Origin: Rhodopseudomonas palustris
GTDB lineage: Bacteria > Pseudomonadota > Alphaproteobacteria > Rhizobiales > Xanthobacteraceae
Direction: 5' to 3'
Length of the DNA stretch: 64,000 nucleotides
Assembly (NCBI RefSeq): GCF_003031265.1
Contig: NZ_CP019966.1
Span: 1,054,001-1,118,000 of the forward strand
Shown: positions 13,542-58,609 of the stretch, one piece after another
How the letters are laid out: every line of letters begins with the position of its first letter
How positions within the stretch are numbered: position 1 is the first letter of the stretch
Notes under the pieces: model-generated
Database searches by the model: none
What the model was told of the DNA's origin: nothing
Seen by the model: only the letters and a program-made list of their open reading frames with translations
Made by a program: the position numbers and the translations under genes

Positions 13542-13616
13542 TGGGGCGTAGCCAAGCGGTAAGGCAGGGGATTTTGATTCCCCCATGCGGAGGTTCGATC
13601 CCTCCCGCCCCAGCCA
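13542..13616 (+). tRNA. tRNA-Gln (anticodon TTG), CCA encoded
   Basis: The cloverleaf is readable. The acceptor stem TGGGGCG pairs with CGCCCCA. The D-arm runs GCC...GGC. The anticodon stem GGGGA/TCCCC encloses loop TTTTGAT with anticodon TTG. The T-arm contains GGTTCGATCC. Discriminator G13613 is followed by an encoded CCA. Its last 17 bases are repeated at 58593-58609, marking it as the insertion site of the island that follows. Confidence 0.97.
13600..13616 (+). repeat. attL: 3' end of tRNA-Gln used as attachment site
   Basis: The 17-mer CCCTCCCGCCCCAGCCA covers part of the T-arm, the 3' acceptor strand, the discriminator and CCA. The same 17 bases occur at 58593-58609 in the same orientation. 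A truncated integrase gene starts about 100 bases downstream, the classical layout for a tRNA-integrated element. Confidence 0.85.
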
Positions 13617-13718
13617 GAATACCCTATCTTATTGATAGTATTGGAGTAAATTTCCGAGCTGGGGGGCTGATGCACAGCCCTGCGACACACCGCTGCTACA
13701 CTAGGGTGTCGTACGACC

Positions 13719-14279
13719 GTGGCTTTCCACATTTTTCGCCGCCGAGCCACCTACTATTGGAGGCGTCGCAGGCCGCTCCAGCTTGCCAGTTTTTGGGCTC
13801 CCTCGCATATTCTAGTGAGCCTGCGCACAACCGCGTTGCCATCGGCACGTCGGTTGGCGGTGGCGCTTGATGCAAAGCTTGAGGACGCAGTGATGCTCGC
13901 CGAAAGTGCCGATCCAACGCTTTCGAAATCCCAGATCGATGCCATGCTTCGGACGGTCGTGGATCGGCATCTAACGAAGCTCGATAGGGTCGCGTTGGTC
14001 GCCAAGGGGTTCACGGGCTTCGATCCAGATCAAGCCCGTCGCGACGATAGGAGAGCTTTCTGGACCTACTCGCTCCTCGATGCCAGCGGTCCCTACGCCG
14101 AGGTCACGGATAGCGATCATGTCCGTATGGTGGATGACGGCCTATGTGATGCTGATATCGAGGCGGTGAAGCGTCACCTGAAGATGCTGAAGGACAACGG
14201 GCTCGTCCCGACCAAACAGCATATTCTTCGGGGATTGATTGAAGGCGTTGCGGCCAAAGCGGTCTCGACAGTGTCGTAG
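13719..14279 (+). pseudogene. Truncated tyrosine site-specific integrase, N-terminal part
   Basis: 186 residues beginning MAFHIFRRRATYYWRRRRP. This is the typical start of alphaproteobacterial phage-type integrases (beta-strand RRR-x-TYYWRRR, then LRTT-x-LPSARRLAVAL). The N-terminal arm and core-binding portion is present, but the frame stops before any catalytic domain. The Arg, His-x-x-Arg and Tyr residues of tyrosine recombinases are missing. Location beside the tRNA 3' end supports an integrase of this element. An IS21 remnant follows at once and may have caused the truncation. It could be annotated as a hypothetical protein, but it cannot recombine DNA alone. Confidence 0.75.
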
Positions 14280-14289
14280 ATAAGCCAGG

Positions 14290-14851
14290 AGATGGTGTTC
14301 GACGCGCACGAGCGCGCCTTCGCGTTCTTCAAGAACTATGCACGCGCGGTATGCACCGCGTCCAGAGGAGAAGAGCTACGACGAGTCGCACGCCTGGCTG
14401 GTCGACAAGTGCGTCGCCTACGCCAAGAGCCGCGCACATCTCGCCACGATCTGGAGGCGTTCGAGTACGAGCGGTCGCACCTCATTCCGTATCGAGGCCA
14501 GTTCGACGGCTTTCATCCGCTGCCGACCGTCGATCTCGTCAACCGGCTGGAAGCCGAGACCCGCTCCGGACGCCGACGAGGCTCGCCGACTATCTCACCC
14601 ACCTCAACTTTGTCATGCTGGATGAACTCGGCTATCTGACGTTACCCAGGCCGGTCGCCAACTCCTGTTCCACGTCATCAGCGGGTTCTACGAGCGAACC
14701 TTGATCATCGTAACTTCCAATTGGCCTTCGGCGGATGGCCGAAGGCGTTCGGCGATCCAAAGAAGACCACGGCATGCTCGACCGCCTAACGCACCACTGC
14801 GATCTCATCGAACCCGGCAACGACAGCTGGCACTTCAAAAGCCGCGCCTGA
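14290..14851 (+). pseudogene. Internally deleted, frameshifted IS21-family istA-istB remnant
   Basis: Pieces of an IS21-type transposase pair occur in order but in different frames. IstA-like VFDAHERAFAFFKNYAR is followed after a deletion by KSYDESHAWLVDKCVAYAKSR and then FEYERSHLIPYRGQFDGFH. The sequence then passes directly into the IstB ATPase: PTVDLVNRLEAETR, LADYLTHLNFVMLDELGYL (Walker B), LLFHVISGFYERT, and a tail ending [21 protein letters not shown]. The N-terminal half of IstA and the Walker A part of IstB are gone, and several frameshifts interrupt the rest. No terminal inverted repeats were identified. Not functional. Confidence 0.8.
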
Positions 14852-14944
14852 ACTCACCCTGTTGATCCGAGCGCCGACGCCGCAAGCCTCGGCCAGCTAC
14901 ACCGGCGCGCACCAGCTTACCAGAGGGGCCCTCTCGGACGATCA

Positions 14945-15215
14945 TTGACACACGGATCGAAGCTATGCTCCGGACGGTCCTCAGCCGACATCTGACGAAG
15001 CTTGATACGTTTGCGTTGATCGCACAGGGTTCGCCGGAACTATCAAGCTCGTCGCGATGATCGGCGTTCTGGACTTACACGCATCCTCGATGCCTACTGC
15101 CCCTGAGCCAACGTTGCGCCTAAAGCTGCGCTCGTATGGCCGAAGATGGCCTATGCGATGGATGACGACATTTGTGATCACCGGGGTCAAAGTGACGAGA
15201 TTGCCAAGAGAGTTA
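14945..15215 (+). pseudogene. Second, more decayed copy of the integrase segment
   Basis: This stretch repeats part of the integrase fragment at 13930-14170 with many changes. RIEAMLRTVLSRHLTKLD here corresponds to [18 protein letters not shown] there. SAFWTY and EDGLCD-like segments follow in shifted frames with in-frame stops. The nucleotide match is clearest around ATGCT-CGGACGGTC and CT-ACGAAGCT-GATA. It suggests duplication of the integrase gene or two successive integrations at the same tRNA, followed by decay. Confidence 0.7.
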
Positions 15216-15397: not shown

Positions 15398-16513
15398 ATG
15401 TCCCATCCGAAACTGTTCACGCCCCTACAGGTCGGCGCGTTGGAGCTCGAAAACCGTATCGTGATCGCTCCGATGTGCCAGTATTCGGCGCGTGAAGGCG
15501 AGATGACGGATTGGCATCTCATGCACTTAGGCAATCTGGCCCTTTCGGGCGCGGCGTTGCTTACGATAGAAGCCACCGCGGTCGCTCCTGAAGGCCGCAT
15601 CACGGCTTTCGATGTCGGCCTTTGGGACGACCGTACCGAGGCGGCGATCGGTCGGGTCGTCGATGCGATTCGGAGCTGGTCATCGATCCCGATTGCGATC
15701 CAGCTATCACATGCCGGCCGCAAGGCGTCGGTCGATGTGCCTTGGCGGGGCGGCCGCCATCTCCCGCCGCACGACCCTAACGGCTGGCAGACCGTGGCGC
15801 CCTCGGCGCTCCCGCTCAGTGTCGGCGGCCGGTCTCCCGTCGCCCTCCATGCCGCAGGTCTCGAGCAGATCCGCCAGGGCTTTGCCCAGAGCGCGCGACG
15901 CGCGGCCCGACTCGGCCTTGATGCTGTGCAATTGCACGCGGCGCACGGCTATCTGTTGCATCAGTTCTTCTCGCCCATCTCGAACAAGCGAGAGGATGAA
16001 TATGGCGGGTCGCTCGAGAATCGGATGCGCTTTCCACTGGTAGTCTTCGACGCAGTTCGTGCTGCCTTCCCCGCAGATCGCCCGGTCACGGTTCGCATTT
16101 CGGGAGCCGACTGGATCGAAGGAGGCGCGACAATCGACGACGCGGTCTCCTTCGCGAAGGCGCTGGAAGCACGCGGCTGCTCGGCTCTCAACGTTTCCAG
16201 CGGCGGGATCGATCCGCTCCAGCGGATCACCGATGGGCCCAGCTACCAGGTTCCGTTTGCGCGGGCCGTGAAACAGGCTGTCTCGATCCCGGTGGCCGCC
16301 GTCGGGCTGATCACGGACTATGAACAGGCAGAAGCGATCATCGCGACCGGCGACGCCGATCTTGTCGCGCTGGCCCGCGGCATCCTGTACGACCCGCGCT
16401 GGCCCTGGCACGCCGCTGCGCACCTGGGTGGCCGCGTACGCGCGCCGGATCAGTACCTTCGCTCTCAGCCTCGTCAGTACAAGAATCTTTTCGACTACCA
16501 ATCCCCGGCGTGA
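15398..16513 (+). CDS. Old Yellow Enzyme-family FMN ene-reductase (YqjM/XenA type)
   Basis: A 371-residue TIM-barrel flavoprotein that reduces activated C=C bonds (enones, nitro compounds) with NAD(P)H. It has the marks of the thermophilic-like/YqjM class: C27 and Y29 in APMCQYS, the substrate-binding pair H180/H183 in QLHAAHGYLLHQFFSP, and HAGRKAS. The C-terminal part has the phosphate-binding VAAVGLI and ADLVALARGILYDPRWPW. Family length fits. It is monocistronic in the left part of the island, after the integrase debris. OYEs are often induced by electrophile or oxidative stress; the sequence does not show its control. Confidence 0.93.
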   Translation: MSHPKLFTPLQVGALELENRIVIAPMCQYSAREGEMTDWHLMHLGNLALSGAALLTIEATAVAPEGRITAFDVGLWDDRTEAAIGRVVDAIRSWSSIPIAIQLSHAGRKASVDVPWRGGRHLPPHDPNGWQTVAPSALPLSVGGRSPVALHAAGLEQIRQGFAQSARRAARLGLDAVQLHAAHGYLLHQFFSPISNKREDEYGGSLENRMRFPLVVFDAVRAAFPADRPVTVRISGADWIEGGATIDDAVSFAKALEARGCSALNVSSGGIDPLQRITDGPSYQVPFARAVKQAVSIPVAAVGLITDYEQAEAIIATGDADLVALARGILYDPRWPWHAAAHLGGRVRAPDQYLRSQPRQYKNLFDYQSPA

Positions 16514-16739: not shown

Positions 16740-18638
16740 GTGAGGACGATCGACCGGAAAAAACGTCGGGCCGTGCTTGTGATAGCCGTCGTTGCATCGG
16801 CGTTGATCTTTGCTGCAGATGCGCTGAGTCCGATCGATGGTGCGGTGGCGGTGCTTTACACCGGTGTGGTGCTGATGGTCGCTCCGCTCGGCCGCAGGTT
16901 CATCGTCGCTGCGGGTTGCATCGCGGCGCTGCTGGCGCTGACGGCCTTTCTGTGGGGGCATGCGTCCGAACTGGTCGGTGGCGCACTGCTGCGGCTCGTC
17001 GTCAGTCTGGTCGCCATCCTGATCACTGTTCTTTTGTCGGTGCGGGACCGATCCGCCCGCATTTCGCTGGCCGAGCAGGTGAGAATTCTCGAGGCGGCAC
17101 ACGACACGGTGATCATTCGCGATTCCGCCGGGATCGTTGGTTACTGGAACGAGGGCGCCGAGCGTCTGTACGGCTGGTCGCGGGATGAGGCGATCGGGCG
17201 TCACTACGCCGAACTCTTCGACGAAGCGGCACCGGTCGAGGACATTGATCGATCGATCCGAGATAGCGGAACGTGGTCCGGCGAGGTCGTCCGCATACGC
17301 CGCGACGGCGCCCGGCTGATTCTGGCAAGCCGCTGGTTGCAGCGGCGCGATCCGGAGGGACGGGCGATCGGGATCATCGAGGCCAGCGCCGACCTCACGG
17401 AGAGCCGGCGGGCACATGCGGAACGGCTCAACTCGGAGCGGCGCTACAGCACCATCTTCAATTCCGCCGGCTTTGCGGCCCTGGAATGCGATCTCAGCAG
17501 TGCTTTGCGTCTGGTGTCGTCCGGGACCGGCGATGTAGTCGGTGCGCTGTGCGCGGATCTGACGCTGCTGGTAGCCGCAGTAGAGCGGATCACGATTTAC
17601 AATGCCAATCCGGCCGCCTTGGAGATGTTCGACGCCAAAGACACTGGCGATCTGATTGCGGCCGAGTTGCTGGCCTGTTCGATCCCGGAGGTTCGGCAGG
17701 CGCTCGAAACCATTTTCGTCGCGCTCGTCGGCGGTGCGACACAGATCGAGACTGAAACGCGCTTCATCACACGGAGCGGGCGGTCGATCGACGCGGTGTT
17801 GCGATTGTCGGTGTTGCCGGACGGAGCCGACTGGTCGCGGGTGCTGCTGATGGCGTTCGACGTGACCGAACGCAACGAGGCGCGGGCCAAGATCGAGCGG
17901 ATCTCCGCCGAGCTCGCCCACGCCGGGCGCGTCTCGGTGCTCGGTCAACTGGCGGCATCGGTTGCGCACGAAGTCAATCAGCCGCTTGCCGCGATTATCA
18001 ACTACGGCAAATCAGGCAAACGCTGGCTGATGCGGCCGACCCCGGATCTCGGCGAGGTTGCCGATTGCCTGGACAAGATCGTGTCGAACGCTAATCGCGC
18101 GGCCGAGGTCGTCGGCCGCGTCCGCTTTCTGACGCGCAAATCGGCGCCGCGGTCGGATTCGGTCGATCTGGTGGTGATGGTTCAGGATGCCATCGAGTTG
18201 CTGAGACGGGAGATCCACCGCGCCAAGGCGACTGTGCGTGTCGAACCCGGCGGTCCGATCGCGGAGATCGATTGCGACCGCGTTCAGGTTCAGCAGGTGA
18301 TCGTCAACCTGCTGATGAACGGGCTCCAGGCAATGCGAGGGCTCGATGCACGTCGTGAGATCCTGGTCAGTCTCGACGACAGCGGCGACACAGTGGCGGT
18401 CGCCGTCTGCGACACCGGGGCGGGGATCGCGGGGGACCCCAAGCAGATCTTCGAGCCGTTTTTCTCGACCAAATCCGATGGGATGGGTCTGGGATTGTCG
18501 ATCTGCCGGACCATCATCGAGGCACAAGGCGGCCAGATCCTGGCGTCGAACAACGACGGTTCCGGCGCCACCGTGGCGTTCACTTTGCCGCGGAGCAACC
18601 CGCAAGAGGGGCGGCATCATCGCGGCCTCATATCTTGA
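16740..18638 (+). CDS. Membrane-bound PAS sensor histidine kinase
   Basis: 632 residues with a GTG start. Four hydrophobic segments in the first 100 residues form a membrane sensor module. A PAS domain (about 118-230, RDSAGIVGYWNEGAERLYGW) and a second PAS-like domain (about 245-380) follow. The HisKA domain has phospho-acceptor H410 in ASVAHEVNQPLAAI. The HATPase has N-box VQQVIVNLLMNGLQAM, G1 DTGAGIA and G2 GMGLGLSICR. The HEVNQP class is typical of FixL/DctB/TodS-like kinases. It is followed at once by a single-domain receiver and a FixJ-like regulator, so these three form a phosphorelay operon. The ligand is unknown. Confidence 0.9.
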   Translation: MRTIDRKKRRAVLVIAVVASALIFAADALSPIDGAVAVLYTGVVLMVAPLGRRFIVAAGCIAALLALTAFLWGHASELVGGALLRLVVSLVAILITVLLSVRDRSARISLAEQVRILEAAHDTVIIRDSAGIVGYWNEGAERLYGWSRDEAIGRHYAELFDEAAPVEDIDRSIRDSGTWSGEVVRIRRDGARLILASRWLQRRDPEGRAIGIIEASADLTESRRAHAERLNSERRYSTIFNSAGFAALECDLSSALRLVSSGTGDVVGALCADLTLLVAAVERITIYNANPAALEMFDAKDTGDLIAAELLACSIPEVRQALETIFVALVGGATQIETETRFITRSGRSIDAVLRLSVLPDGADWSRVLLMAFDVTERNEARAKIERISAELAHAGRVSVLGQLAASVAHEVNQPLAAIINYGKSGKRWLMRPTPDLGEVADCLDKIVSNANRAAEVVGRVRFLTRKSAPRSDSVDLVVMVQDAIELLRREIHRAKATVRVEPGGPIAEIDCDRVQVQQVIVNLLMNGLQAMRGLDARREILVSLDDSGDTVAVAVCDTGAGIAGDPKQIFEPFFSTKSDGMGLGLSICRTIIEAQGGQILASNNDGSGATVAFTLPRSNPQEGRHHRGLIS

Positions 18639-18711
18639 TATGATGGGTTCTGCAGGCCAAAGCCGTCATACCATCGCGGGGCCAGGTTCGCGGACGCCGC
18701 AGGAGACGACT

Positions 18712-19125
18712 TTGGCGCAGGGAAATACGATCTGCATCGTGGACGACGACGAAGACGTGCGAGAGAGCATTTCCAGCTTCTTTCGGTCGGTCGGGCTCCA
18801 GGTCGTCGGCTTCGGCACCGCCGAGAACTGTCTGTCGTCTGCGACGATCGACAGTGCCGCGTGTCTGATCACGGACCTGCATATGCCCGGAATGAACGGG
18901 CTTGGATTGCACCGCGAACTGCAGCGTCGCGGCGTCCAGGTGCCGGTCATCGTGATGACGGCCTATTCGACACCGGAGGCCCGTGCGGAAGCTCGCCATC
19001 TTGGCGCCGCCGGGTTCGTCGAGAAGCCGGTCGATCCCGAAATCCTACTGCAGAACGTCGAAACGATCCTGCGGGAGGCATCGGCTCATGATCGCGATCC
19101 AGATTCGCCGGAGCCGACGTCATGA
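18712..19125 (+). CDS. Single-domain response regulator (CheY/FixJ-receiver-like)
   Basis: 137 residues, essentially one receiver domain. The acidic pocket is DDDED, the phospho-acceptor D55 lies in LITDLHMPGMNG, and T/K signature residues lie in VMTAY and VEKPVD (K105). No output domain follows. The TTG start at 18712 is chosen because AGGAGA lies five bases upstream and the domain begins directly after it. ATG codons at 18640 and 18643 are possible but lack a ribosome-binding site. Its end overlaps the start of the next regulator by four bases. It may act as phosphate sink or intermediate between the kinase and the DNA-binding partner. Confidence 0.85.
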   Translation: MAQGNTICIVDDDEDVRESISSFFRSVGLQVVGFGTAENCLSSATIDSAACLITDLHMPGMNGLGLHRELQRRGVQVPVIVMTAYSTPEARAEARHLGAAGFVEKPVDPEILLQNVETILREASAHDRDPDSPEPTS

Positions 19126-19808
19126 GCGAGCCGTCGGGTGGGCCAGAACCATCACTGATCTGTGTCGTCGATGACGACGAAGACGTCCGTAGCTCGATCA
19201 GCAGCCTGCTGCGCTCGGTCGGCTATCGGGTGAAGACCTTCGCCGGACCGCAAGAATTTCTTGCCTCCGACGCCGTGGACACCGCCTCCTGCCTGATTCT
19301 GGATATCCGGCTCGGAGAAGCAGATGGCTTGGAATTCCAGGAGGAGCTTGTCGCCGCCGATACGCCGATTCCGATCATCCTGATCTCGGGGCACGGCGAC
19401 ATTCCGATGACGGTCCGGGCGATGAAGGCCGGCGCCGTCAACTTTCTGCCCAAGCCTTTCGCCGAGGCGGCGCTGCTCGCCGGCGTCCGGGAGGCCGTGT
19501 CTCGCGCGCGGCAGAAGCGGAGCGAGGCGGACCGGGATCATAGTCTCCGCATGCACTACGAATCGCTGACGTCGCGCGAACGCGAGGTGATGGGGCTTGT
19601 CACGGCCGGCTTGATGAACAAGCAGATTGCCTGGCAGCTGTCGCTCAGCGAGATCACCGTCAAGATTCACCGCGGCAACATGATGCGCAAGATGCAGGCG
19701 AAGTCTCTTGCCGAGCTGGTCCGGATGGCCGACGCGCTTGGCGTCCGGGCGACGTCTGCTGCTCGGCTCGACGGCCGCCGGCGTGAACCGCCGACGTCGC
19801 AACGTTAG
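19122..19808 (+). CDS. FixJ-family response regulator with LuxR-type HTH
   Basis: 228 residues. The receiver domain (about 12-125) has DDDED, phospho-acceptor D61 in LILDIRLGEADG, and K111 in FLPKPF. A GerE/LuxR helix-turn-helix (about 150-215) contains LTSREREVMGLVTAGLMNKQ and IHRGNMMRKM. The start ATG overlaps the preceding regulator's stop (ATGA), indicating translational coupling. Phosphorylation by the upstream PAS kinase is the natural assumption. Targets are not visible; the stress genes that follow on the same strand are candidates. Confidence 0.93.
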   Translation: MSEPSGGPEPSLICVVDDDEDVRSSISSLLRSVGYRVKTFAGPQEFLASDAVDTASCLILDIRLGEADGLEFQEELVAADTPIPIILISGHGDIPMTVRAMKAGAVNFLPKPFAEAALLAGVREAVSRARQKRSEADRDHSLRMHYESLTSREREVMGLVTAGLMNKQIAWQLSLSEITVKIHRGNMMRKMQAKSLAELVRMADALGVRATSAARLDGRRREPPTSQR

Positions 19809-20189
19809 CTCTGCGTCTATCCAGTTCGGATTTAGGTAAGGCTCGGCGGCTCGTTCGGTGCCGCGGAGGCGCGTGCCGACTCGAAGGGCGCTTCGTCAGG
19901 CGTCGTTGTCGCTCGGTGATCCGGCGGCTGTCAGATGAATCGTGCGGCGGACGCATCATGTCTGTTACGAGATCGACGATCACACGAACCTGTCGGCCGC
20001 TGACGAAGCGCGAGACCCGACATTGTTCGTGATGACCCGCTGATGTCTTCGAAGTGCTGTTGCGCAAACGCAGTGCTGATCCGGAACGGCTTCCGTCCCT
20101 GCGTTGCCAGATCGATGTCACGCGGCCGTCGAAAGGTAGCGCAGCTACCCTCGGCCTCGACGCTGTCGCACCGCAATCAGGAGACGATC
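19809..20189. other. Gene-free stretch before the hydrolase
   Basis: 381 bases with no coding frame that looks real. It separates the two-component operon from the hydrolase gene and must contain the hydrolase promoter and leader, ending in a CAGGAGA ribosome-binding site. No clear terminator, palindrome or promoter consensus was seen. Confidence 0.5.
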
Positions 20190-21011
20190 ATGTCGACCTT
20201 CACGACCGCCGATACCACGAAACTGTACTACAAGGATTGGGGCAGCGGCCAGCCGGTCGTGTTCAGTCACGGCTGGCCGCTATCGTCGGACGCGTTCGAG
20301 GACCAGATGTTCTTCCTCGCCCAGCGTGGCTTCCGGGTGATCGCCCACGATCGTCGCGGTCATGGCCGATCGGACCAGCCGTGGACCGGCAACGATATGG
20401 ATACATACGCCGACGATCTCGCGGCGTTGGTCAAGCACCTCGATCTCTCGAATGCGATCCACGTTGGGCACTCCACCGGCGGCGGTGAGGTGGCGCGCTA
20501 CATCGGCCGTCACGGTGCGGCGCGGGTGGCCAAGGCGGTGCTGATCGGCGCGGTCCCGCCAGTAATGGTGAAGTCCGCGACCAACCCCGGTGGACTGGAC
20601 ATCTCGGTGTTCGACGGTCTGCGCGCCGGCGTGACCACCGATCGCTCCAAATTGTGGAAGGATCTCAGCCTGCCGTTCTACGGCTACAATAAGCCGGGCG
20701 CGCAGGTGTCCGAGGCGGTGCGCGAGTCGTTCTGGCTGCAGGGCATGATGGCCGGTCTTCCGGCTGCGTATTTTTGCATCAAGGCGTTCTCCGAAACCGA
20801 CATGACGGACGACCTCAAGAAGATCGAAGTGCCGACGCTGTTGTTGCACGGCGACGCCGATCAGATCGTCCCGATCGACGATTCGGCAAAACTCTCAGCG
20901 AAGCTGCTGAAGAATTGCGAACTGCAGGTGATTCCCGGCGCGCCGCACGGGATGTGCACGACCCACAAGGACCTGATCAACGAACGCCTGCTCGCCTTCT
21001 TCCAGAAGTAG
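20190..21011 (+). CDS. Alpha/beta hydrolase, non-haem chloroperoxidase (perhydrolase) family
   Basis: 273 residues. The alpha/beta-hydrolase core has nucleophile S95 in GHSTGGGE, the oxyanion region FSHGWPL, the acid in [13 protein letters not shown] (about D223) and the catalytic His in GAPHGMC (about H252). This is the CpoF/haloperoxidase-like esterase branch, whose members hydrolyse esters and make peracids in vitro; the physiological substrate is usually unknown. Start ATG 20190 has a CAGGAGA ribosome-binding site seven bases upstream; the open frame extends further 5' without coding character. Dps and HdeD-like genes follow on the same strand. Confidence 0.9.
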
Positions 21012-21146
21012 TTGCTTGCGTCGGCCGGCCGAGCTCGTTCCTCCTTGTCGATCAGGCCCTTCGTTGAGCCGACCGCTCGACCCTCACGCCAGCGCTTTGC
21101 CCAGGCCAATCACGACCCTCCCTACGACCGATGAAAGGACCCTCAC

Positions 21147-21668
21147 ATGCAGCTGCCCCTCGTCCGCCCGAACCTGGATAGTCCAACGGATCTGTCGTCC
21201 GAGGCCATTCGCGACATTGCTGCCGCGTTGCGCGCCCTGCTGGCCGATGTCTTCGCCATTTATCTAAAGACGAAGAATTTCCACTGGCACATGTCCGGTC
21301 CGCACTTTCGCGACTACCATCTGATGCTCGACGAACAGTCGGACCAGATCTTCGGCATGACGGATCAGATCGCCGAACGTTCCCGCAAGATCGGGGGCAC
21401 GGCACTGCATTCGATCGGACACATCGCCCGGACCCAGCGCATCCTCGACAACGACGCCGACTACGTGGATCCGCAAGACATGCTGGCCGAGCTTCGCGGC
21501 GACAATCAACAACTGACCGTCGAGCTACGCCGCCTGCACGGGCTTTGCGACCAATATGGCGATATCGCGACGACTAGCCTCATCGAGAACTGGATCGACG
21601 AGGCTGAGCGGCGGGTCTGGTTTCTCTACGAAGCTGGTCGGCACGGCCATAACTCGCACGGCGAATAG
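21147..21668 (+). CDS. dps: Dps-family DNA-protecting ferritin-like protein
   Basis: 173 residues of the Dps/miniferritin fold. The ferroxidase-site segments NFHWHMSGPHF and LMLDEQSDQIFGMTDQIAER carry the His, Asp and Glu ligands shared across subunits. Dodecameric Dps oxidises Fe2+ with hydrogen peroxide, stores iron, and in some species coats DNA. The N-terminus lacks the Lys-rich tail of E. coli Dps, so DNA binding is uncertain. An AAAGGA site lies eight bases upstream of the ATG. It lies 14 bases before the HdeD-like gene and is probably co-transcribed with it. Confidence 0.93.
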   Translation: MQLPLVRPNLDSPTDLSSEAIRDIAAALRALLADVFAIYLKTKNFHWHMSGPHFRDYHLMLDEQSDQIFGMTDQIAERSRKIGGTALHSIGHIARTQRILDNDADYVDPQDMLAELRGDNQQLTVELRRLHGLCDQYGDIATTSLIENWIDEAERRVWFLYEAGRHGHNSHGE

Positions 21669-21682
21669 ACGGGAGGCACCAC

Positions 21683-23248: not shown

Positions 23249-23395
23249 CCTTGCATTCCTCGGAAATCGGAGAGCGGCGCGCCGACGCCTCGGCCGGCAG
23301 CCCTTCCTCGATCGCGATGATGCCCGGCCCAGAACCATGCGTCTTGAACGAAATGCGAATCCGCTTGTGCAGATTGGGAGCGGCCTGACGCTTGC

Positions 23396-50800: not shown

Positions 50801-53029
50801 CGCGAGGGCTACGAAGCGCAACGGGCCGCGGCTCTGATCGCGTTGGACCAAGTTAGCGTCTGGACCAGGCCGATGCGTTTTGCGCTCGAGCGCGCGCGCG
50901 AAGGTGCCCGCGTCGGCCAGGCTGCGGGCGATCTCGGCATGGCCTGCTATGCGCGCAACCACATCGCCTCTAATCTTCTCGTGCTCGGCGAGCCCCTCGA
51001 CGCGGTTCGAGCCGAGATATCGGAAGGCCTCACCTATACCATCGAGATCGGCTACAAGGATATCGAGCGTATCCTCGACGCCCAGATGGGCCTCGTCACC
51101 GCACTGCTGAGCGGAGACATCGATCGCCATCGCGTCCCCGACGCTGACTCCATCACGTCGAAGGTGACCCAGTTCTGGGTGAGCTACTACGCCGGCGTCA
51201 CCGCCTTGCTGTTCAATCGGGATGCCGCGGCGCTGCGCCATCTGGAGAAGGCGATGGACTTGGCGTGGTCCGCGCCGGCGCACATCGACACCGCGCAGTG
51301 CCAGTTCTTCTTCGCGCTGGCATCGTGCCGTTCGATCGCGGCAGGCCGACCGACCGATGACAAGATCGCGCGCCTCGACACGGTCCGCACGCGCTTCGCC
51401 GAATGGGCGCGTTTGAATCCGGACACGTTCGAGAGCAAGCATCTTATGCTTGAAGCCGAAGCCGCGCGGCTGGGCGGTGACGCCGTGGCCGCGCAGAGAT
51501 TGTACGAGCGGGCGGCCCGTGTCGCGGAGAGAACGGGCTTCATCCACGAGCAGGCGCTCGCCCACGAGCTGGCCGGGACTTACTACACGGAGGCCGGTCT
51601 ATTCGTCCCGGCGCAGGGCTACCTGATTGCGGCGGGCGCCTGTTATCGTCAGTGGGGCGCGATCGGCAAGGCCACGCATCTCGCCGTTCGATTTCCGCTC
51701 CACGCGGGCAGGGTTGCTCCGGCGGAGGACGGGATCGGCCAGCGCGAGCTCGATCTTGCGGCGCTGACGGCGGCGGCCCAGACGCTGGCCGAAGAGGTCG
51801 GCCTCGAGCAGGTGCTACGAACCTTGATGCGGAGCATGGTCGTCCATGCGGGCGCACAGTTCGGTTTGTTCCTGCTGGTGCAGGACGGAGCTGCGGGAAT
51901 CGAAGCCTCGGCACGGGTGGAGCGGCAGGAGATCCGGGTCGATCTCTACAGCGCGATCCCGACGGACGACGACCTGCCGCTGTCGTTGATGAAGACCGTG
52001 ATGCGGACCAAGAAGGCTGTGACCTTCTCCGACGTCTCGGCGGACGCGCCGCAGCTCGATGCTGCCGGACCGCGCCGCCGGGCCGCCCGCTCGCTGGCCT
52101 GCATCCCCTTCATCAAGCGCGGCGATCTGGTGGGCGTGCTGTATCTGGAGAATTCGCTGGCCGCCAATGTCTTCACCCCCGGCCGGACCGCGATGCTTGA
52201 GGTGCTGGCCGCGCAGGCGGCGATCTCTCTGGACGCGGCGCGGCTGTATCGCAACCTGATCGACGAGAATCGGCGCCGGGCCGAGGCGGAGTTTCAACTG
52301 CGGGAGGCCCGGGCGGAGTTGGGGCGGACCTCGCAAATGACCGCGCTCGGCAGTTTCGCCGCCTCGATTGTGCACGAGATCAATCAGCCGATCGCCAGTA
52401 TTCTGGCACAAACCGAGGCCGCGCTGCGCTGGCTCAACCGGGAGCAGCCCGACATCGGCGAGGTGACCCAAGGGCTGACCCGGATCAGGAATTCGGGACG
52501 CCGCACCGCCGATATCGTCAAGTCGCTGCGGGCGCTGGGAAAGCAGGCGCCGGCGACATTATCTCCGATCTTTCTGGAAGAAGTGGTGGAGGAAGTCACG
52601 AGGTTGGTCGCCGAAGACCTCGATGCGGACAGCGTGCAGATGGCGGTGGAGCTGTCCGATCGACGGCGCAGTATTTTTGCCGATCGCGTCCAGCTGCAGC
52701 AGGTCATCTTTAATCTCGTCACCAATGCGATTCACGCGATGGCCGAGATGGAGGTGAGCGCGAGGCGGATCGTGATCAGGACCACCGAAGCCGGCGACGG
52801 AATGGTTCGCCTCACCATCGAGGACAGCGGCTGCGGCATGTCCGAGGAGGTGCGCAGCAGGATTTTCGAACCGTTCTTCACCACTAAGACGGCGGGCATG
52901 GGCGTTGGGCTCGCGATCTGCCGCTCGATCGTGGAGCTGCATCGCGGCACGATCGACGTGCGTTCGACGCCTGGGCAGGGCAGTACGTTCGAGATCTCCA
53001 TCCCCGTCTGCGAGCACGTCGCGACCTGA
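47891..53029 (+). CDS. Giant pseudokinase-AAA ATPase-GAF-sensor histidine kinase
   Basis: 1712 residues. (1) A Ser/Thr kinase-like domain (about 35-300) in which the catalytic loop reads HGTLDPCKVLL at 145 instead of HRDLKPxN, and DFG is EFG at 165-167; APE (about 192) is kept. The catalytic Asp and metal Asp are missing, so it should be inactive. (2) An AAA/predicted-ATPase module with Walker A SGPPGAGKS (about 345-353) and Walker B LILFLDDLQWFD. (3) A long helical-repeat region (about 720-1280). (4) A GAF domain (about 1310-1450). (5) HisKA with H1495 in SIVHEINQPIASI, and a HATPase with GMGVGLAICR. Members with active kinases are known in bacteria and cyanobacteria. The first codon is TTG at 47891, and no better start is visible. 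No response regulator is adjacent. Confidence 0.9.
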   Translation: MATSQQTCHGDARSSSAEPGPYQAINRQWWSELAFSFIGLADGIETHLAEDKSGRIWRVRSAAAGTFAATRLEREASVAARVGAAAAELPAYVGNSDKVVLVYPAAARRALASLPIGEVAVDRFLAIAEAAAISLSRVHACDVVHGTLDPCKVLLDGNGSVRFAEFGRARLTGQEFAPDISGLPQIDFKYTAPEQARRDHPVLDTRSDLYAVGVILYEFLVGRPPLLAASIAEWLHAHVAIDVPPPSQVRARIPPAIDAVLLKLLAKDPDQRYDTAGELQAEIARIAALRGTAGAEDALSYPSGKLAVRARLADALFGRNAELDSLVRSLDNVRQSCRAEVVLLSGPPGAGKSALVGCLLKRVSPSDAISAVGKGDPLRKAIPYAPIVQALRSAMISLVAGDREAREAVRSRLAEVPGCGRLLTELIPDVELLSGSSRPLPEVPAHLAQVRTTRIIRETFAALASAQTPLILFLDDLQWFDGASLDVAKALLDARSSHILLICSHRSDERSDGPWSSLSDEARASGIPCTEMNLAALSLGDTAELIAFALNHPIDQVREMSAIIHRETNGNPFYIGQIVQKLTDEQIVSFDEARQQWVWDQGRLFQGFTVIEFMARRLEALPKRQREVLRHLACLSRRGSIEVLAGLTAIPSDDARKLVDSLVQANLILRAGGYLTFSHDRVREAAYSLTPEQRRPSEHLRIARYFVAGGDGDCTPDLAFDIATQITRADRGRLDDRERVIFAGVLLTAARTSRSTGAVEQALRFLDVARDLRSHSGATDREFPVFAIEWLRCDCLLALADTEDALLALGHLMDVAVTPVEIADTYRLRALALTIRSEYDSAIEAALQGLAAIGIEIQRLPDLADLEQLYRACQARLDELTPAGILALPDASDEVARAALPLLSTLISASFVPGDLRFLHVLKIVELTLDYGLTPESAYGLAWFGVYGAHHFAAYEQGVIWAEVACRMVEREGYEAQRAAALIALDQVSVWTRPMRFALERAREGARVGQAAGDLGMACYARNHIASNLLVLGEPLDAVRAEISEGLTYTIEIGYKDIERILDAQMGLVTALLSGDIDRHRVPDADSITSKVTQFWVSYYAGVTALLFNRDAAALRHLEKAMDLAWSAPAHIDTAQCQFFFALASCRSIAAGRPTDDKIARLDTVRTRFAEWARLNPDTFESKHLMLEAEAARLGGDAVAAQRLYERAARVAERTGFIHEQALAHELAGTYYTEAGLFVPAQGYLIAAGACYRQWGAIGKATHLAVRFPLHAGRVAPAEDGIGQRELDLAALTAAAQTLAEEVGLEQVLRTLMRSMVVHAGAQFGLFLLVQDGAAGIEASARVERQEIRVDLYSAIPTDDDLPLSLMKTVMRTKKAVTFSDVSADAPQLDAAGPRRRAARSLACIPFIKRGDLVGVLYLENSLAANVFTPGRTAMLEVLAAQAAISLDAARLYRNLIDENRRRAEAEFQLREARAELGRTSQMTALGSFAASIVHEINQPIASILAQTEAALRWLNREQPDIGEVTQGLTRIRNSGRRTADIVKSLRALGKQAPATLSPIFLEEVVEEVTRLVAEDLDADSVQMAVELSDRRRSIFADRVQLQQVIFNLVTNAIHAMAEMEVSARRIVIRTTEAGDGMVRLTIEDSGCGMSEEVRSRIFEPFFTTKTAGMGVGLAICRSIVELHRGTIDVRSTPGQGSTFEISIPVCEHVAT

Positions 53030-53161
53030 GCATATCTTGGTATTATTGGGGCCTGACATTTGCGGTCCCAACTCCTAACCGGTGCCGCGCGAAGTCACCG
53101 CTGCCGCCTCGTTGAAAGGTTCCGGCCGGACAAGCGCGCCAAAGGTTCTGGAGCGGAAGCA

Positions 53162-54619
53162 ATGGCGAGCGAGACTGTGACACCGACCCTGCGTGATGTG
53201 GCGATCGGCCTCACGGCGACAGGCGATCGCCGCGAATTCGACAGCATGGGCAGCGTCGACGTTCCCGCCGACCGCTATTGGGGTGCGCAGACGCAGCGCT
53301 CACTGCAGCATTTCTCGATCGGCGGCGACCGGATGCCGAAAGCGGTGTACCACGCCTATGGCTACGTCAAGAAAGCCTGCGCGCTGGTCAATCACGCGGC
53401 GGGGCGGCTGCCGGCCTGGAAGACCGAGGCTATCGTCCGGGCCGCCGACGAGACGATCTCGGGCGCGTTGGACGATCACTACCCGCTGTTCGTGTGGCAG
53501 ACCGGCTCCGGCACCCAGAGCAACATGAACGTCAACGAAGTCGTTTCCAACCGGGCGATCCAGCTGCTTGGCGGTACGCTCGGCACGCAGCAGCCGGTCG
53601 GGCCGAACGATGACGTCAATATGGGCCAATCCTCGAACGACACCTTTCCGACCGCGATGCACATTGCCGCGGTGACGGCGATCGACGACCAAGTTATGCC
53701 GCAGCTCTCCAAGCTGATCGAGATCATCGAACGCAAGGCCGACGGCTGGAAGGATGTCGTCAAGATCGGTCGTACCCATCTCGAAGACGCCGTGCCGCTG
53801 ACGGTCGGCCAGGAGTGGCACGGTTGGGCTGGCCAGTTGCGCGACGCACGAGATGCGATCGAAGCCAGCCGCGCCGGTTTGTATCAGCTCGCCGTCGGCG
53901 GCACTGCGGTCGGCACCGGCCTCAACGCGCCGAAGGGGTTTGCGGCCGACGTCGCCGCCAGGATTGCCGAGCTCACCGGCAAGCCGTTTGTCACCGCTCC
54001 GAACAAATTTGCCGCCCAAGGCTCGCTCGACGCGATGGTGCGCGCCCACGGCGCGTTGCGCGATCTCGCGGTGGCGCTGATGAAGATCGCCAACGACATG
54101 CGCTGGCTCGCCTCGGGGCCGCGCTGCGGCTTCGGCGAATTGCTGCTGCCGAGCAACGAGCCCGGGTCCTCGATCATGCCCGGCAAGGTCAACCCGACGC
54201 AGTGCGAAGCGATGGTGATGATCTGCATTCAGGTGATGGGCAACGACAGTGCCGTCGCTTTCGCCGGCAGCCAGGGCAATTTCGAGCTCAACGCGATGCG
54301 CCCGGTGATCATCAACAACTTCCTGCATTCGGCGCGCATCCTTGCCGACGGCTGCGAAAAATTCCGGACCTATTCGGTCGAAGGCACCGAGCTCAACCGC
54401 GACCGCATCGCCCAGTATGTCGAGGGCAGCGTGATGCTGGTCACCGCGCTGTCGCCGGTGATCGGCTATCAGAACGCCGCACACATCGCCGAGGATGCGA
54501 TTGCAAAGGATCTTACGCTGAAGCAGGCAGCGCTCGCGTCCGGAAAGGTCGACGAGGCGACGTTCGACCGCATCGTCAGGCCGATCGACATGGTCGGCAG
54601 CGGCCTCGCGGGCGCCTGA
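53162..54619 (+). CDS. fumC: Class II fumarate hydratase
   Basis: 485 residues of the fumarase/aspartase superfamily, interconverting fumarate and malate without an Fe-S cluster, hence oxygen-stable. Visible elements are TGSGTQSNMNVNEVVSNR, NMGQSSNDTFPTAMH, GRTHLEDAVPLTVGQEWHG and the signature GSSIMPGKVNPTQCE. About 15-20 extra N-terminal residues precede the usual start (REFDSMGSVDVPADRYWGAQ). ATG 53162 has GGAG nine bases upstream; the open frame is longer. It is the first gene of a four-gene operon ending in mqo. A core class I or II fumarase probably exists elsewhere, so this may be a stress isoform. Confidence 0.95.
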   Translation: MASETVTPTLRDVAIGLTATGDRREFDSMGSVDVPADRYWGAQTQRSLQHFSIGGDRMPKAVYHAYGYVKKACALVNHAAGRLPAWKTEAIVRAADETISGALDDHYPLFVWQTGSGTQSNMNVNEVVSNRAIQLLGGTLGTQQPVGPNDDVNMGQSSNDTFPTAMHIAAVTAIDDQVMPQLSKLIEIIERKADGWKDVVKIGRTHLEDAVPLTVGQEWHGWAGQLRDARDAIEASRAGLYQLAVGGTAVGTGLNAPKGFAADVAARIAELTGKPFVTAPNKFAAQGSLDAMVRAHGALRDLAVALMKIANDMRWLASGPRCGFGELLLPSNEPGSSIMPGKVNPTQCEAMVMICIQVMGNDSAVAFAGSQGNFELNAMRPVIINNFLHSARILADGCEKFRTYSVEGTELNRDRIAQYVEGSVMLVTALSPVIGYQNAAHIAEDAIAKDLTLKQAALASGKVDEATFDRIVRPIDMVGSGLAGA

Positions 54620-54620
54620 G

Positions 54621-55901
54621 GTGCTGCGTGAACCGATCCCGGCGCAGCACGCCGCGCATGTCGCGCTACGGCTCGGACGACTGATGCTGGCGAACGGCGC
54701 TGACACCGCGCATGTAGTGAGCGCCGTCACCGGCTTCGCCGAACGGCTCGGCTATCGCGTCCGCCTGTTCGTCGGCCTCGAAGGGCTGATCCTGACGCTC
54801 GAAGACGACGAAGGCTTTCGCACCCGGCTGGGCCCGGCGATCGCCGGCACCGCCGTCAACATGGGCGTGCTCAGTGCGCTCGGCGAGCTGCGCCGCCGCA
54901 CCATTGCCGACGCCGATGATCTCGCCGCGATCGACCGTGCGCTCGACGACATCGAACACGGCGGTGCTCACTATCCTCGCTGGCTGGTGGCGCTCGGCAT
55001 GGGCGTCACCGCCGCCGCGCTGGCCCGGTTGTTCGGCGCCGCGTGGCCGGTGGTCGGCGTCTCGGTGCTGGTCGGCATCGTCACGCAAAGCCTGCGGCAA
55101 TATCTGGCGGCGAGCGGGACCAACCCTGTCGCCGGCGCGGCCCTCGCCGCCTTCGGCGGCTCGATGGTCGGGCTGCTGGCGATGCGGGCTTTCCCAGGCG
55201 TCTCGCCGACGTTGTGTTTGGTAGCCGCTGGCATGATCCTGGTCCCCGGCGTGCCGCTGCTCAACGGAGTTCGTGATATCCTGGGCAGCCACATCGGCAC
55301 CGGCCTCGGCCGGCTGTTGCTCGCGGCCGTCGCCGTACTGGCAATCACGCTCGGGCTGTTTTTGTCCGCAAGCCTGATGGGCGATGTGCTGCAGGTTAAC
55401 GGCAGTCCACCGCTGCTCGCCACGTCCGAAGATCTGTTGTTCTCTGCGCTGGCCGGTGCCGGCTACGCGCTGCTGTTCAATGTGCCGGCGCGCGCCGCAT
55501 GGGTCTGCGTGATCTGCGGCATGGCGGGCCACGGGCTGCGCACCGGGCTCGAACATCTCGGCCTCGAGCTTAGCCTCGCCTGCCTGATCGGCGCGTTCGT
55601 CGCCGCTCTGCTGGGGAGGATATTCGCCGGCCACTTCCGAGTCCCGGCCGTCACCTTTGCATTTCCCGGCATTGTCGCGATGATCCCGGGCTCCTACGCG
55701 TTTCGCGCCGGCATCGGCGGGCTTGCCATCATGAAGGCGGGCGGTTCGGTGGCGCCCGAACTGATCGCCGACACGCTCGGCCTGATCGTCACCGTGATGG
55801 TGGTGACGGCGGCTCTGGGCGTCGGCCTGTGCTTGGCGCTGGCCGCGCCGCTTCCGGCTGCTTTGGGCGGCCAATCGAACCAGGAAGGAGTGATCCGATG
55901 A
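54621..55901 (+). CDS. ThrE/YjjP-YjjB-family (DUF1212-DUF3815) transporter
   Basis: 426 residues with a GTG start one base after the fumC stop. The N-terminal DUF1212 half (HVALRLGRLMLANGADTAHV, then helices to about residue 250) is fused to a DUF3815 half (about 270-415, ending in VAPELIADTLGLIVT). About ten membrane segments. This is the threonine/serine exporter (ThrE) superfamily, which also contains the E. coli succinate exporter YjjPB. Its place between fumC and mqo makes a C4-dicarboxylate an attractive substrate, but that is inference. It overlaps the cupin gene by four bases. Confidence 0.88.
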   Translation: MLREPIPAQHAAHVALRLGRLMLANGADTAHVVSAVTGFAERLGYRVRLFVGLEGLILTLEDDEGFRTRLGPAIAGTAVNMGVLSALGELRRRTIADADDLAAIDRALDDIEHGGAHYPRWLVALGMGVTAAALARLFGAAWPVVGVSVLVGIVTQSLRQYLAASGTNPVAGAALAAFGGSMVGLLAMRAFPGVSPTLCLVAAGMILVPGVPLLNGVRDILGSHIGTGLGRLLLAAVAVLAITLGLFLSASLMGDVLQVNGSPPLLATSEDLLFSALAGAGYALLFNVPARAAWVCVICGMAGHGLRTGLEHLGLELSLACLIGAFVAALLGRIFAGHFRVPAVTFAFPGIVAMIPGSYAFRAGIGGLAIMKAGGSVAPELIADTLGLIVTVMVVTAALGVGLCLALAAPLPAALGGQSNQEGVIR

Positions 55902-56299
55902 TACGCTGCGTGCGGATGTGGACTGGCGAGGACGGCAACTCGCTGTTCGAGGAGGGCTGGATCGATCTGACCGAAGGCGCGCGCGGCGACGCGGTCGGCA
56001 AGCCGGTGCCCGCCATCGAGGTGTCGTTTCAGGAGACGAAGTCGGGCGGCTCGTTCGAATGGCATCAGGACCCGGTGCCGCGCTATGTGATTACGCTGTC
56101 GGGCACGCTCGAATTCGAGACCAAGTCGGGCGCGACCTTCAAGATCCGTCCCGGCGACATCCTGCTGGCGCAGGACAACAGCGGCTCCGGCCACAAATGG
56201 CGGCTGATTGGCGAGGAGCCGTGGCGCCGCGCCTATGTGGTGTACCGCGAAGGCTCCGAGCTGCAATTCGTCGCTGCGCCGAAGGAGCCCCAGGCATGA
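55898..56299 (+). CDS. Small single-domain cupin protein
   Basis: 133 residues. One cupin barrel: motif 1-like HQDPVPRYVITLSGTLEFET and motif 2-like IRPGDILLAQDNSGSGHKW. The first motif keeps one His and lacks the full H-x-H-x4-E metal set, so metal binding is uncertain. A GGAAGGAG ribosome-binding site lies inside the end of the transporter gene, and its own stop overlaps mqo (ATGA). Co-translation with mqo suggests a role linked to malate oxidation. The activity is unknown. Confidence 0.85.
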   Translation: MIRCVRMWTGEDGNSLFEEGWIDLTEGARGDAVGKPVPAIEVSFQETKSGGSFEWHQDPVPRYVITLSGTLEFETKSGATFKIRPGDILLAQDNSGSGHKWRLIGEEPWRRAYVVYREGSELQFVAAPKEPQA

Positions 56300-57786
56300 G
56301 CGCGATCCCCGAGACCTCCGACATCGTGCTGATCGGCGCCGGCATCATGAGCGCGACGCTCGGCACCGTGCTGAAAGAGCTGGAGCCGTCGCTCTCCGTG
56401 ACGATGTTCGAGACGCTGCACGATTGCGGCCAGGAAAGTTCGCAGGCCTGGAACAATGCCGGCACCGGCCACGCCGCCAATTGCGAACTCAACTACACGC
56501 CGCAGCGGCCGGACGGCAGCGTCGACATTTCCAAGGCGCTCGAGGTCAACACCGAGTTCGACATCTCGCGCCAGCTCTGGGCGTATCTCGTCGGCAAGGG
56601 CGCGATTCCGGATCCGCGTGCCTTCCTGCATGCCTGTCCGCATATGAGCTTCGTCTGGGGAGACGACAACGTCGAATTCCTGCGCGAGCGCCACCGCGAG
56701 ATGGCAGCGCATCATTGCTATCACGGCATGGAGTTCAGCGAGGACCCGGCGCAAATCGCCGCCTGGGCGCCGCTGATCATCGAGGGGCGCGAGCCGGGCC
56801 AGCCGATCGCCGCGACGCGAATCATCACCGGCGCCGACGTCGACTACGGCGCGCTGACGCATCTGCTGGTGAAGCAACTGCAGGCGAAGTCCGGCTTCTC
56901 GGTGCACTATAAGCACCGCGTTGTCGCGCTGGCGCGCGACGACGGGCGCTGGCTGGTGACGGTCGAGAACGTCGCGACCACTGAGCGAACCACCACATCG
57001 GCGCGCTTCGTGTTCGCTGGCGCCGGCGGCGGCGCGCTCGACATCCTGCAGAAGTCGGGCATTCCGGAAGGCAACGGCTATGCGGGCTTTCCGGTGAGTG
57101 GCATCTGGCTGCGCTGCGACGTCGACGACATCAGCGTGCGGCATCATGCCAAGGTTTACGGCAAAGCCGCGCACGGCTCGCCGCCGATGTCGGTGCCGCA
57201 TCTCGACACTCGCATCATCGGCGGAAAGCGCTCGCTGCTGTTCGGGCCGTATGCGGGTTTCTCCAGCAAATTCCTCAAGCACGGCTCCTACGCGGATTTG
57301 CTACGCTCGATCGAGCCCGGCAACATTTTGCCGATGCTGGCAGTGGCGCGCGAGGACTGGCAGCTCAGCGAATATCTGATCGGCCAGGTATTGCAGACCT
57401 CCGAACATCAGTTTGCCGCGCTGCAGGGCTTCTTCCCGAAGGCCCAGCGCGAGGATTGGCAGCGCGCCGTCGCCGGCCAGCGGGTGCAGATCATCAAGCC
57501 CGATCCGCAGCACACCGGCGTGCTCGAATTCGGCACCGAACTCGTCGCCAGCGCCGACAAGTCCTTCGTCGCGCTGCTCGGCGCCTCGCCGGGCGCCTCG
57601 ACCGCCGCCTTCATCGCCATGGAGGTGCTGCAGAAATGTTTCGATGACAAGCTCACGCCGGACGGTTGGCTCGGGGCGCTGAAGCAGATGATCCCGACCT
57701 ACGGCATCGATCTGAAACAGGACGCCGCCGCCTGCCGCGACAGCCGCGCCCGGACCGCGAAGGTGCTGCAGCTCGATTTCGTCTAG
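56296..57786 (+). CDS. mqo: Malate:quinone oxidoreductase
   Basis: 496 residues, a peripheral membrane FAD enzyme oxidising malate to oxaloacetate and reducing quinone. N-terminal Rossmann motif DIVLIGAGIMSATLGTVL, the family block SQAWNNAGTGHAANCELNYT, VFAGAGGGAL in the middle, and a C-terminal GASPGASTAAFIAMEVLQK FAD motif. Full family length. The start overlaps the cupin stop. With fumC at the head of the operon, it makes a fumarate-to-oxaloacetate path that feeds electrons straight into the quinone pool, usable by the CioAB oxidase of the same island. Confidence 0.95.
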   Translation: MSAIPETSDIVLIGAGIMSATLGTVLKELEPSLSVTMFETLHDCGQESSQAWNNAGTGHAANCELNYTPQRPDGSVDISKALEVNTEFDISRQLWAYLVGKGAIPDPRAFLHACPHMSFVWGDDNVEFLRERHREMAAHHCYHGMEFSEDPAQIAAWAPLIIEGREPGQPIAATRIITGADVDYGALTHLLVKQLQAKSGFSVHYKHRVVALARDDGRWLVTVENVATTERTTTSARFVFAGAGGGALDILQKSGIPEGNGYAGFPVSGIWLRCDVDDISVRHHAKVYGKAAHGSPPMSVPHLDTRIIGGKRSLLFGPYAGFSSKFLKHGSYADLLRSIEPGNILPMLAVAREDWQLSEYLIGQVLQTSEHQFAALQGFFPKAQREDWQRAVAGQRVQIIKPDPQHTGVLEFGTELVASADKSFVALLGASPGASTAAFIAMEVLQKCFDDKLTPDGWLGALKQMIPTYGIDLKQDAAACRDSRARTAKVLQLDFV

Positions 57787-58099
57787 CCTTCGTTGCAACG
57801 ATGTCTTGAAAGTACCGCTAACGGGCGCATTGGCGATGCCAAGACGTACCGCTTGCCTTGCTGCATTTCGATCGACGATTGCTCCCTGCGACGTGTTCGC
57901 TTTGTCCGTTTTGGGTCACAAGCGGACATGCGCACTCACATTGCCCCGAGGGGGTAGGCTTTGCCGCCGTTGCAGCGACCGACATTTGGGACTCGCTACG
58001 GCGAGAGGCGACTCGGCTCCGCGGGGCAGACGATCTCGAGCGACATAGCCGCGACCGTTGGTAACGCTGGTATCGAAATTGGAAACGCAAAACGAGGGC

Positions 58100-58193
58100 T
58101 TTTGTAACGCCTAAATCGAATTTCGACATCGCGGCAGGCGGCGCCAAACATCCGAATTTAGGCGTTATTTTTCCTAATTTAAGCGTTACAAAA
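58100..58193. repeat. Triple inverted TAACGC(C/T)TAAAT repeats
   Basis: TTTTGTAACGCCTAAAT (58100-58116) is matched in inverse by ATTTAGGCGTTA (58156-58167 region) and again by AATTTAAGCGTTACAAAA (58176-58193). The outer pair aligns over 17 bases with one change. Repeats of this sort close to an att site can be integrase or excisionase arm sites, or an operator or replication-protein site. No protein partner remains in the window. Confidence 0.6.
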
Positions 58194-58450
58194 GGGGGTA
58201 TGTAACGGGGGGCGTAGACGAATTTGCCTCCCACGCTGATGCCTACAATGCCGTCTACGAAAATCGCCCGATGGGCGATGTCATCGTAGGCATTTGACGC
58301 ATTCTTGAATTCGAACGATGCGTTGGCAGGAACACGCTATCCGATCAATTCCACGGCTCCCTTTGGGCTCTAGGTAGCGCCAAGCCTTCGGCCATGGCCC
58401 GAGGATTGGACATCAGATTGCGCTATGTCCTCGTCATCCTAATCTTGAAA

Positions 58451-58480
58451 GAAGGCAGGCAAGCCGGCGGCTTTGCCTTC
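58451..58480. terminator. Stem-loop near the island's right end
   Basis: GAAGGCA (58451-58457) pairs with TGCCTTC (58474-58480), and inside it AAGCC pairs with GGCTT around a GGC loop. It could be a terminator relic of a lost gene. No T tract follows. Confidence 0.4.
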
Positions 58481-58592
58481 TACGTCTGCTCAGAGTTGCC
58501 CATGCGACACCTTGATGCTATACAAGCCGTGTGTCGCGAATAGAAACTCAGTAATTTCAATAAGTTGGATCCGGTTGGCTGCTGGCTGAGTA

Positions 58593-58609
58593 CCCTCCCG
58601 CCCCAGCCA
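58593..58609 (+). repeat. attR: duplicated 3' end of tRNA-Gln
   Basis: An exact copy of bases 13600-13616 (CCCTCCCGCCCCAGCCA), same orientation, with unrelated flanks and no other part of a tRNA. Immediately beyond it the hydrogenase cluster begins. This defines the right border of the putative island. Confidence 0.85.

Follow-up and report, generated by a model that had tools for sequence, protein, structure and literature searches.

What are the roughly 45 kb of DNA that lie between a tRNA-Gln gene next to the dxs block and the hydrogenase genes of Rhodopseudomonas palustris, and how did they come to be there? We addressed this question in a window of 64,000 nucleotides, G000:C1:1054001-1118000, where G000 is the R. 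palustris genome studied (a single contig of 5,269,926 bp); plain coordinates are those of the window, and other genomes bear their own G numbers. Very probably, these 45 kb represent an old genomic island, integrated at tRNA-Gln, that has lost its own integrase. The tRNA, the sole one called in the window by ARAGORN, and the two ends of the island comprise the following features:

13542..13616, + strand: tRNA-Gln(TTG), the integration target (ARAGORN)
13600..13616, + strand: attL (left attachment site) core, 17 bp, tRNA 3' end (exact repeat)
13617..13718, + strand: left attachment arm, similar to the arms of G001, G003 and G011
13719..14276, + strand: integrase relic reduced to its N-terminal 186 codons, which include DUF6538; the catalytic part is lost (Pfam, comparison with G011)
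14280..14910, + strand: decayed stretch, IstB/IS21-like as judged from its translations
14917..15162, + strand: another, diverged integrase relic interrupted by stops; 41-43% identity to integrase residues 60-145
58513..58592, + strand: right attachment arm, sharing 90% identity over 80 bp with the arm of the G003 island
58593..58609, + strand: attR (right attachment site) core, 17 bp (exact repeat; the G004 alignment restarts here)

The sequence CCCTCCCGCCCCAGCCA is found exactly at 13600-13616 and 58593-58609, and the original prediction of a 17-base direct repeat of the tRNA 3' end thus proved correct to the base. Because the bases preceding the two copies differ (ttcgat and gagta), the repeat is 17 bp long. 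The exact 17-mer has two copies in the whole 5.27-Mb genome, both at the island ends. Allowing up to three mismatches on both strands yielded one extra match in the window, at 10913-10929, outside the island; in 100 shuffles the mean number of matches at this tolerance was 0.40, and 1/100 reached three. No internal 17-mer with up to four mismatches was found on the + strand between 13001 and 59000.

The HupU-like protein and the dxs-tRNA DNA served as queries against 61 genomes. In G004, the dxs block is followed by tRNA-Gln, a single 17-mer and, 130 bp further, a HupU-like gene. The alignments of G004:C1:1040000-1052000 to the window cover 7552-8081 (96% identity), 8150-13616 (93%) and 58593-64000 (94%), and those reaching 13616 and starting from 58593 overlap on the only 17-mer of G004. 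The empty site that had been anticipated next to HupU therefore exists, and together with the duplicated tRNA end its precision bears out the proposed integration at tRNA-Gln. The dxs-hydrogenase neighbourhood assumed in that proposal holds in G004 but not across the genus: in G003, 4.2 Mb (linear coordinates) separate the tRNA-Gln/dxs block from the HupU-like gene, and no HupU-like match was found in 4/16 genus genomes (G002, G005, G012 and G013). The features of a tRNA-integrated island are thus present, namely an end at the tRNA 3' end, a distal direct repeat, an empty site and an adjoining integrase, the latter as a relic only. It is most improbable that the repeat is fortuitous and the region ordinary variable backbone. 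The composition, not clearly foreign, would suit that explanation, but the G004 alignments break exactly at the repeat, the two exact copies in 5.27 Mb are both here, and the integrase relic and the arms are common to other islands. The empty site of G004 is a difference between G000 and G004 and does not give the direction of the change; G004 may have lost the island.

The integrase debris expected just inside the left repeat was found at 13719-14276. It retains 186 of about 657 codons, including DUF6538, and over 184 residues shares 93% identity with the N-terminal part of an open integrase frame in G011. The proportions of synonymous (pS) and nonsynonymous (pN) differences between the two, 0.19 and 0.034 over 184 codons, imply that selection acted on the gene through most of the period since their separation. 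An intact integrase, as borne by self-mobile islands, was not found in the G000 island. In G011, G014 and G006, open integrase frames of 657-668 residues begin 98-103 bp beyond the core, and the two of these that were scanned, from G011 and G014, harbour both DUF6538 and Phage_integrase domains. This integrase is carried by 11/198 sampled family genomes at an E value of at most 1e-40; in eight of them tRNA-Gln(TTG) is present in the fetched locus, two more have the exact 17-mer, and one (G198) has neither. In L316 and L320 (G181 and G249), the exact 17-mer lies beside the integrase with no adjoining tRNA called, perhaps as the inner att copy of a tandem array. A protein search, which scored just the 8000 candidates sharing the most words, returned 132 relatives at E <= 1e-30, many of them named from Bradyrhizobium. 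Downstream of the relic, two open reading frames (ORFs) scanned in the decayed stretch 14280..14910 gave no Pfam match, and 14373-14844 aligns to G011 DNA in inverted orientation with 71-74% nucleotide identity.

All 16 genus genomes have the 17-mer. Two copies on one contig occur in 4/16, with spacings of 45.0 kb in G000, 16.5 kb in G003, 44.1 kb in G006 and 33.1 kb in G014, and G008 and G011 each have two copies on separate contigs. The G014, G006 and G003 islands (33.1, 44.1 and 16.5 kb) resemble that of G000 in their tRNA, their 17-bp core and a related integrase or arms. Their cargo differs: in blastn comparisons retaining matches >150 bp, the G014 and G006 intervals match none of the G000 cargo, and that of G003 only two stretches (69% nucleotide identity). 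The G014 island is thus devoid of the G000 cargo, and G010 resembles its empty site. Within the tRNA-Gln interval of G003, a relative of the island's hybrid kinase, 32% identical, is found at G003:C1:229971-234917. Inside attR, the adjoining 80 bp share 90% identity between G000 and G003, and 35-53% for the other five pairs among G000, G003, G006 and G014; three of these five are within chance, since 2000 random pairs of island 80-mers averaged 27% and reached at most 46%. DUF6538-family integrases follow the same tRNA in islands with different cargo. In this genus, tRNA-Gln(TTG) has thus been a landing site repeatedly, with a single integrase family serving it.

The age of the island can be gauged from G001, in which window positions 16571-57888, apart from the AraC gene at 46811-47806, follow the same tRNA with their order kept, over 41 kb, in blocks of 77-91% nucleotide identity. 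These 41 kb have moved, or stayed, nearly as one block. In a gyrB plus dxs tree of 15 genomes (midpoint root; G008, with no gyrB over the cut-off, was left out; some inner nodes are weakly supported), one half groups G000 with G004, G007, G005, G003 and G015, and the other G001 with G006, G012, G002, G009, G011 and G013. By the Nei-Gojobori method, for ORFs with at least 100 aligned codons, pS between G000 and G001 is 0.312 in the island (27 ORFs) and 0.320 and 0.316 in two core sets, ten ORFs near the origin and nine left of dxs. The hup set was left out of the core, as it contains reverse-strand ORFs over hydrogenase genes. Some ORFs in these sets are paralogous or spurious; dropping those below 60% amino acid identity (3/27 in the island, 1/10 and 1/9 in the core sets) gave 0.305 (24 ORFs) for the island and 0.312 (9) and 0.321 (8) for the core. 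Island and core being equally diverged, the two copies would have parted at about the time the clades did. The island is thus old, its G000 and G001 copies being as far apart as core genes.

These results bear on a different scenario, a private and recent gain, with a single entry into the G000 lineage after its split from G004. It is a serious possibility, though we lean against it. G004, the nearest genome compared, is cleanly empty. Relatives of the ThrE-like exporter and the hybrid kinase at >=89% identity occur in just 2/16 genus genomes, G000 and G001, in different clades, a pattern that would take fewer gains than losses. From G011, the integrase relic is also a little less diverged than are gyrB and dxs. 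However, a recent donor of the G001 kind would have left the island closer than the core, and the distances are equal; any donor must then have been an unsampled lineage whose distance from G001 is about that of G000. The equal divergence makes such a recent entry less likely and points rather to an island of long standing that many lineages have lost, or to transfer among the members of each clade. Long residence in the genus with later losses explains the data no worse than a private gain does, and the 'one acquisition event' of the original prediction is not established, given the ordered cargo of G001 in the other clade.

Stepwise growth, in which several elements entered the same site in succession and the 45 kb are their sum, appears unlikely for the whole island. 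In its favour are the second integrase relic at 14917-15162, the absence from G001 of the first 2.8 kb with the OYE gene, and the two tandem islands, BJ6TGI11 and BJ6TGI12, described at trnQ-TTG in Bradyrhizobium japonicum USDA6 in the available portion of that source (PMC3927601). According to the same portion, these islands share with that of G000 the tRNA isoacceptor, in another genus, and the duplication of the tRNA end, and no integrase gene is listed for either; their duplications are 47 and 39 bp instead of 17 bp, their lengths 6.6 and 30.4 kb, and the comparison concerns the site, not the cargo. Against stepwise growth, G001 keeps the order of 41 kb save for one AraC gene, and no internal 17-mer was found at the above tolerance on the + strand. 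Growth within the 41 kb would thus predate the split of the copies, and recent growth would be mostly at the left end. There the second integrase relic hints at accretion, which is likely within the left 2.8 kb that differ from G001.

We therefore return to an old tRNA-integrated island. A DUF6538-type tyrosine recombinase would have inserted a circular element at the final 17 bp of tRNA-Gln(TTG), keeping the tRNA whole at the left and leaving a 17-bp copy to close the right end. The integrase has since decayed, and the G000 copy should be fixed in place. Probably the genus already carried the island at the split of its two main clades, many lineages losing it since; otherwise each clade would have passed it on among its own members.

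Several observations do not sit easily with this interpretation. The G001 copy resembles that of G000 in its tRNA and cargo order, but it lacks window positions 13751-16571, including the OYE gene, and the AraC gene at 46811-47806, and its integrase is almost wholly gone. A second exact 17-mer is also missing from it, as is any with up to four mismatches on the + strand of C74:49901-89700; the right flank of this copy gave one match, of 97 bp in L084, among 20 loci compared. Per-ORF pS values in the island range from 0.19 to 0.51 after filtering (0.10-0.57 before; core sets 0.24-0.46), and the copies may not be uniformly old. The relic is slightly closer to G011 than gyrB (pS 0.25) or dxs (0.29), a modest hint that the left end moved later; together with the pS spread, it leaves room for later exchange. 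Lastly, island GC content and tetranucleotides are inside the range of host 10-kb blocks. GC content is 0.638 in the island, 0.660 in the window flanks and 0.653 in 19 sampled host stretches; four 10-kb island blocks have 0.626-0.648, and 37 host blocks 0.653 +/- 0.013 (range 0.606-0.679). Tetranucleotide distances of the island are within the host range, its most deviant block being matched by 5% of host blocks. GC content at third codon positions, though, is lower inside, at 0.772 (31 island ORFs) vs 0.847 (13 flank ORFs). A composition this close to the host's would explain why a GC-based predictor reported no island in R. palustris PS3, the 2018 paper on which, as far as its available text goes, reports no genomic island with GC anomaly as the sole criterion (PMC6109142). 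The same paper gives R. palustris YSC3 (CP019967) an identity of 95% to PS3.

What the island carries was determined by scanning 35 of its ORFs with Pfam, with further NCBIfam scans; smaller ORFs were left out. The cargo genes are as follows:

15398..16510, + strand: OYE-type NADH:flavin oxidoreductase (Pfam), in the stretch missing from the G001 copy
16740..19805, + strand: PAS histidine kinase and two response regulators (Pfam)
20043..22261, + strand: alpha/beta hydrolase, Dps/ferritin-like protein, HdeD-like protein (DUF308) (Pfam, NCBIfam)
22409..25424, - strand: histidine kinase, AraC regulator, RpoH-like sigma factor (Pfam, NCBIfam)
25733..28742, - strand: DUF1275 protein, bicupin oxalate decarboxylase, two CrcB-family fluoride exporters (Pfam, NCBIfam)
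28733..33078, - strand: MdtABC/MuxABC-like RND pump and adaptor (Pfam, NCBIfam)
33383..40252, + strand: PoxB, FdhF/YdeP-family oxidoreductase, cytochrome bd subunits I and II (Pfam, NCBIfam)
40357..42592, + strand: UBP-type zinc finger, AraC regulator, histidine kinase (Pfam)
43452..46667, + strand: FUSC/AaeB-like exporter and AaeA/HlyD-like adaptor (Pfam, NCBIfam)
46811..47806, - strand: AraC regulator (Pfam), absent from the G001 copy
47891..53026, + strand: 1712-residue Ser/Thr kinase - AAA - GAF - histidine kinase hybrid (Pfam)
53060..57783, + strand: class II fumarase, ThrE-like exporter, malate:quinone oxidoreductase (Mqo) (Pfam, NCBIfam)

These scans agree with the expectation that only accessory genes lie inside the island. 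Among the 35 ORFs given to Pfam, the remainder being unscanned, there were no relaxase or type IV secretion genes, as would mark an integrative conjugative element, nor any phage structural genes, as would mark a prophage (PHROGs was not run). The hybrid kinase at 47891-53026 has relatives at about 50% identity in G028, G033, G061, G079 and G116.

In Escherichia coli, HdeD- and YdeP-family genes are found together with regulators in the acid fitness island and the EvgA/YdeP regulon. The G000 island likewise combines HdeD- and YdeP-family genes with regulators, and differs in that no gad-type match was found among the scanned ORFs; oxalate decarboxylase, PoxB, cytochrome bd and Mqo are present instead. 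From the roles of these E. coli relatives and from family names, it is plausible, if slightly short of probable, that the cargo resembles an acid or weak-acid stress set. Oxalate decarboxylase would consume protons, and the FUSC/AaeA-like, RND and CrcB exporters would expel weak acids and fluoride, a scheme to which we give nearly even credence. With similar reserve, electrons from pyruvate, malate and the YdeP substrate might pass via quinone to cytochrome bd, under kinases, AraC regulators and a sigma factor of the island's own. Several of the family matches behind it speak against such a function. PoxB scored above its equivalog cut-off, and the FdhF/YdeP family above the subfamily cut-off and below the YdeP equivalog cut-off, but the NCBIfam matches of HdeD, the YdeP equivalog, the RpoH equivalog, Dps, AaeA, AaeB, MdtA and ThrE are below curated cut-offs. 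Among the papers listed in searches on Rhodopseudomonas islands and on the cargo enzymes, no title or abstract opening described this island or cluster, which does not prove that such a description is lacking.

Part of the same cargo recurs at another tRNA. An island-like stretch in G012, at tRNA-Ser(CGA) (G012:C1:210078-242261; L125 and L126), harbours a related cluster between 22-bp repeats, one at the tRNA and the other 32 kb away. In this cluster 18 ORFs are matched at about 71% mean amino acid identity, some of them weak or spurious; RpoH, OxdC, PoxB, YdeP and CydAB are 80-91% identical to those of the G000 island. The common order is RpoH-DUF1275-OxdC-CrcB-CrcB-PoxB-YdeP-CydAB-zfUBP-AraC, in G012 without the RND pump and with a weak HlyD match in addition. 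As its pS to the G000 island, 0.505, exceeds the core pS of 0.338, the cluster is not a vertical copy of that island. An empty site for the tRNA-Ser island was not proved, G002 aligning just to the tRNA end. Outside the genus, cargo subsets occur near YdeP or the hybrid kinase in G028, G033, G061, G063, G079 and G116 (on two contigs in the latter), G057 showing none and G065 two weak ones; these contexts were chosen from the best YdeP or kinase matches and hence are not a random sample. A further observation is a 28-bp dispersed repeat, G000:C1:2810591-2810618 (in L232), which accounts for 29 of 30 short matches listed between a 20-kb core stretch and G001.

We also analysed the neighbourhoods of YdeP in the best 80 named loci out of at least 594; 62 of these 80 were at least 20 kb long. 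At least one of eight chosen cargo families is present in 13/34 loci with YdeP identity of at least 56.5% and in 2/28 below this cut, which was set after the data were seen. The cargo might be a respiratory/redox and efflux assortment without a single purpose rather than an acid-stress set, which is quite possible although we tend to doubt it. Many of its regulators and pumps have broad roles, the recurring neighbours in the 62 loci are few (CydAB, Dps, OxdC and PoxB), and a response-regulator match is equally common in both identity groups (6/34 and 6/28). On the other hand, the RpoH-to-AraC gene order recurs in G012 at another tRNA, and subsets are found in six more genomes outside the genus.

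Only tentatively do we propose that the cargo of the old tRNA-Gln island may be one self-regulated acid/weak-acid stress and quinol-oxidase programme. It would be a movable unit in the genus, kept since the main clades split, at tRNA-Gln in two lineages and partly at tRNA-Ser in a third, and fixed in G000 after the loss of the integrase. The att sites and the empty site reveal a 45-kb island that GC-anomaly methods can miss, its composition being near that of the host. Seen beside two different tRNAs, its cargo gene set can be tested as a unit.

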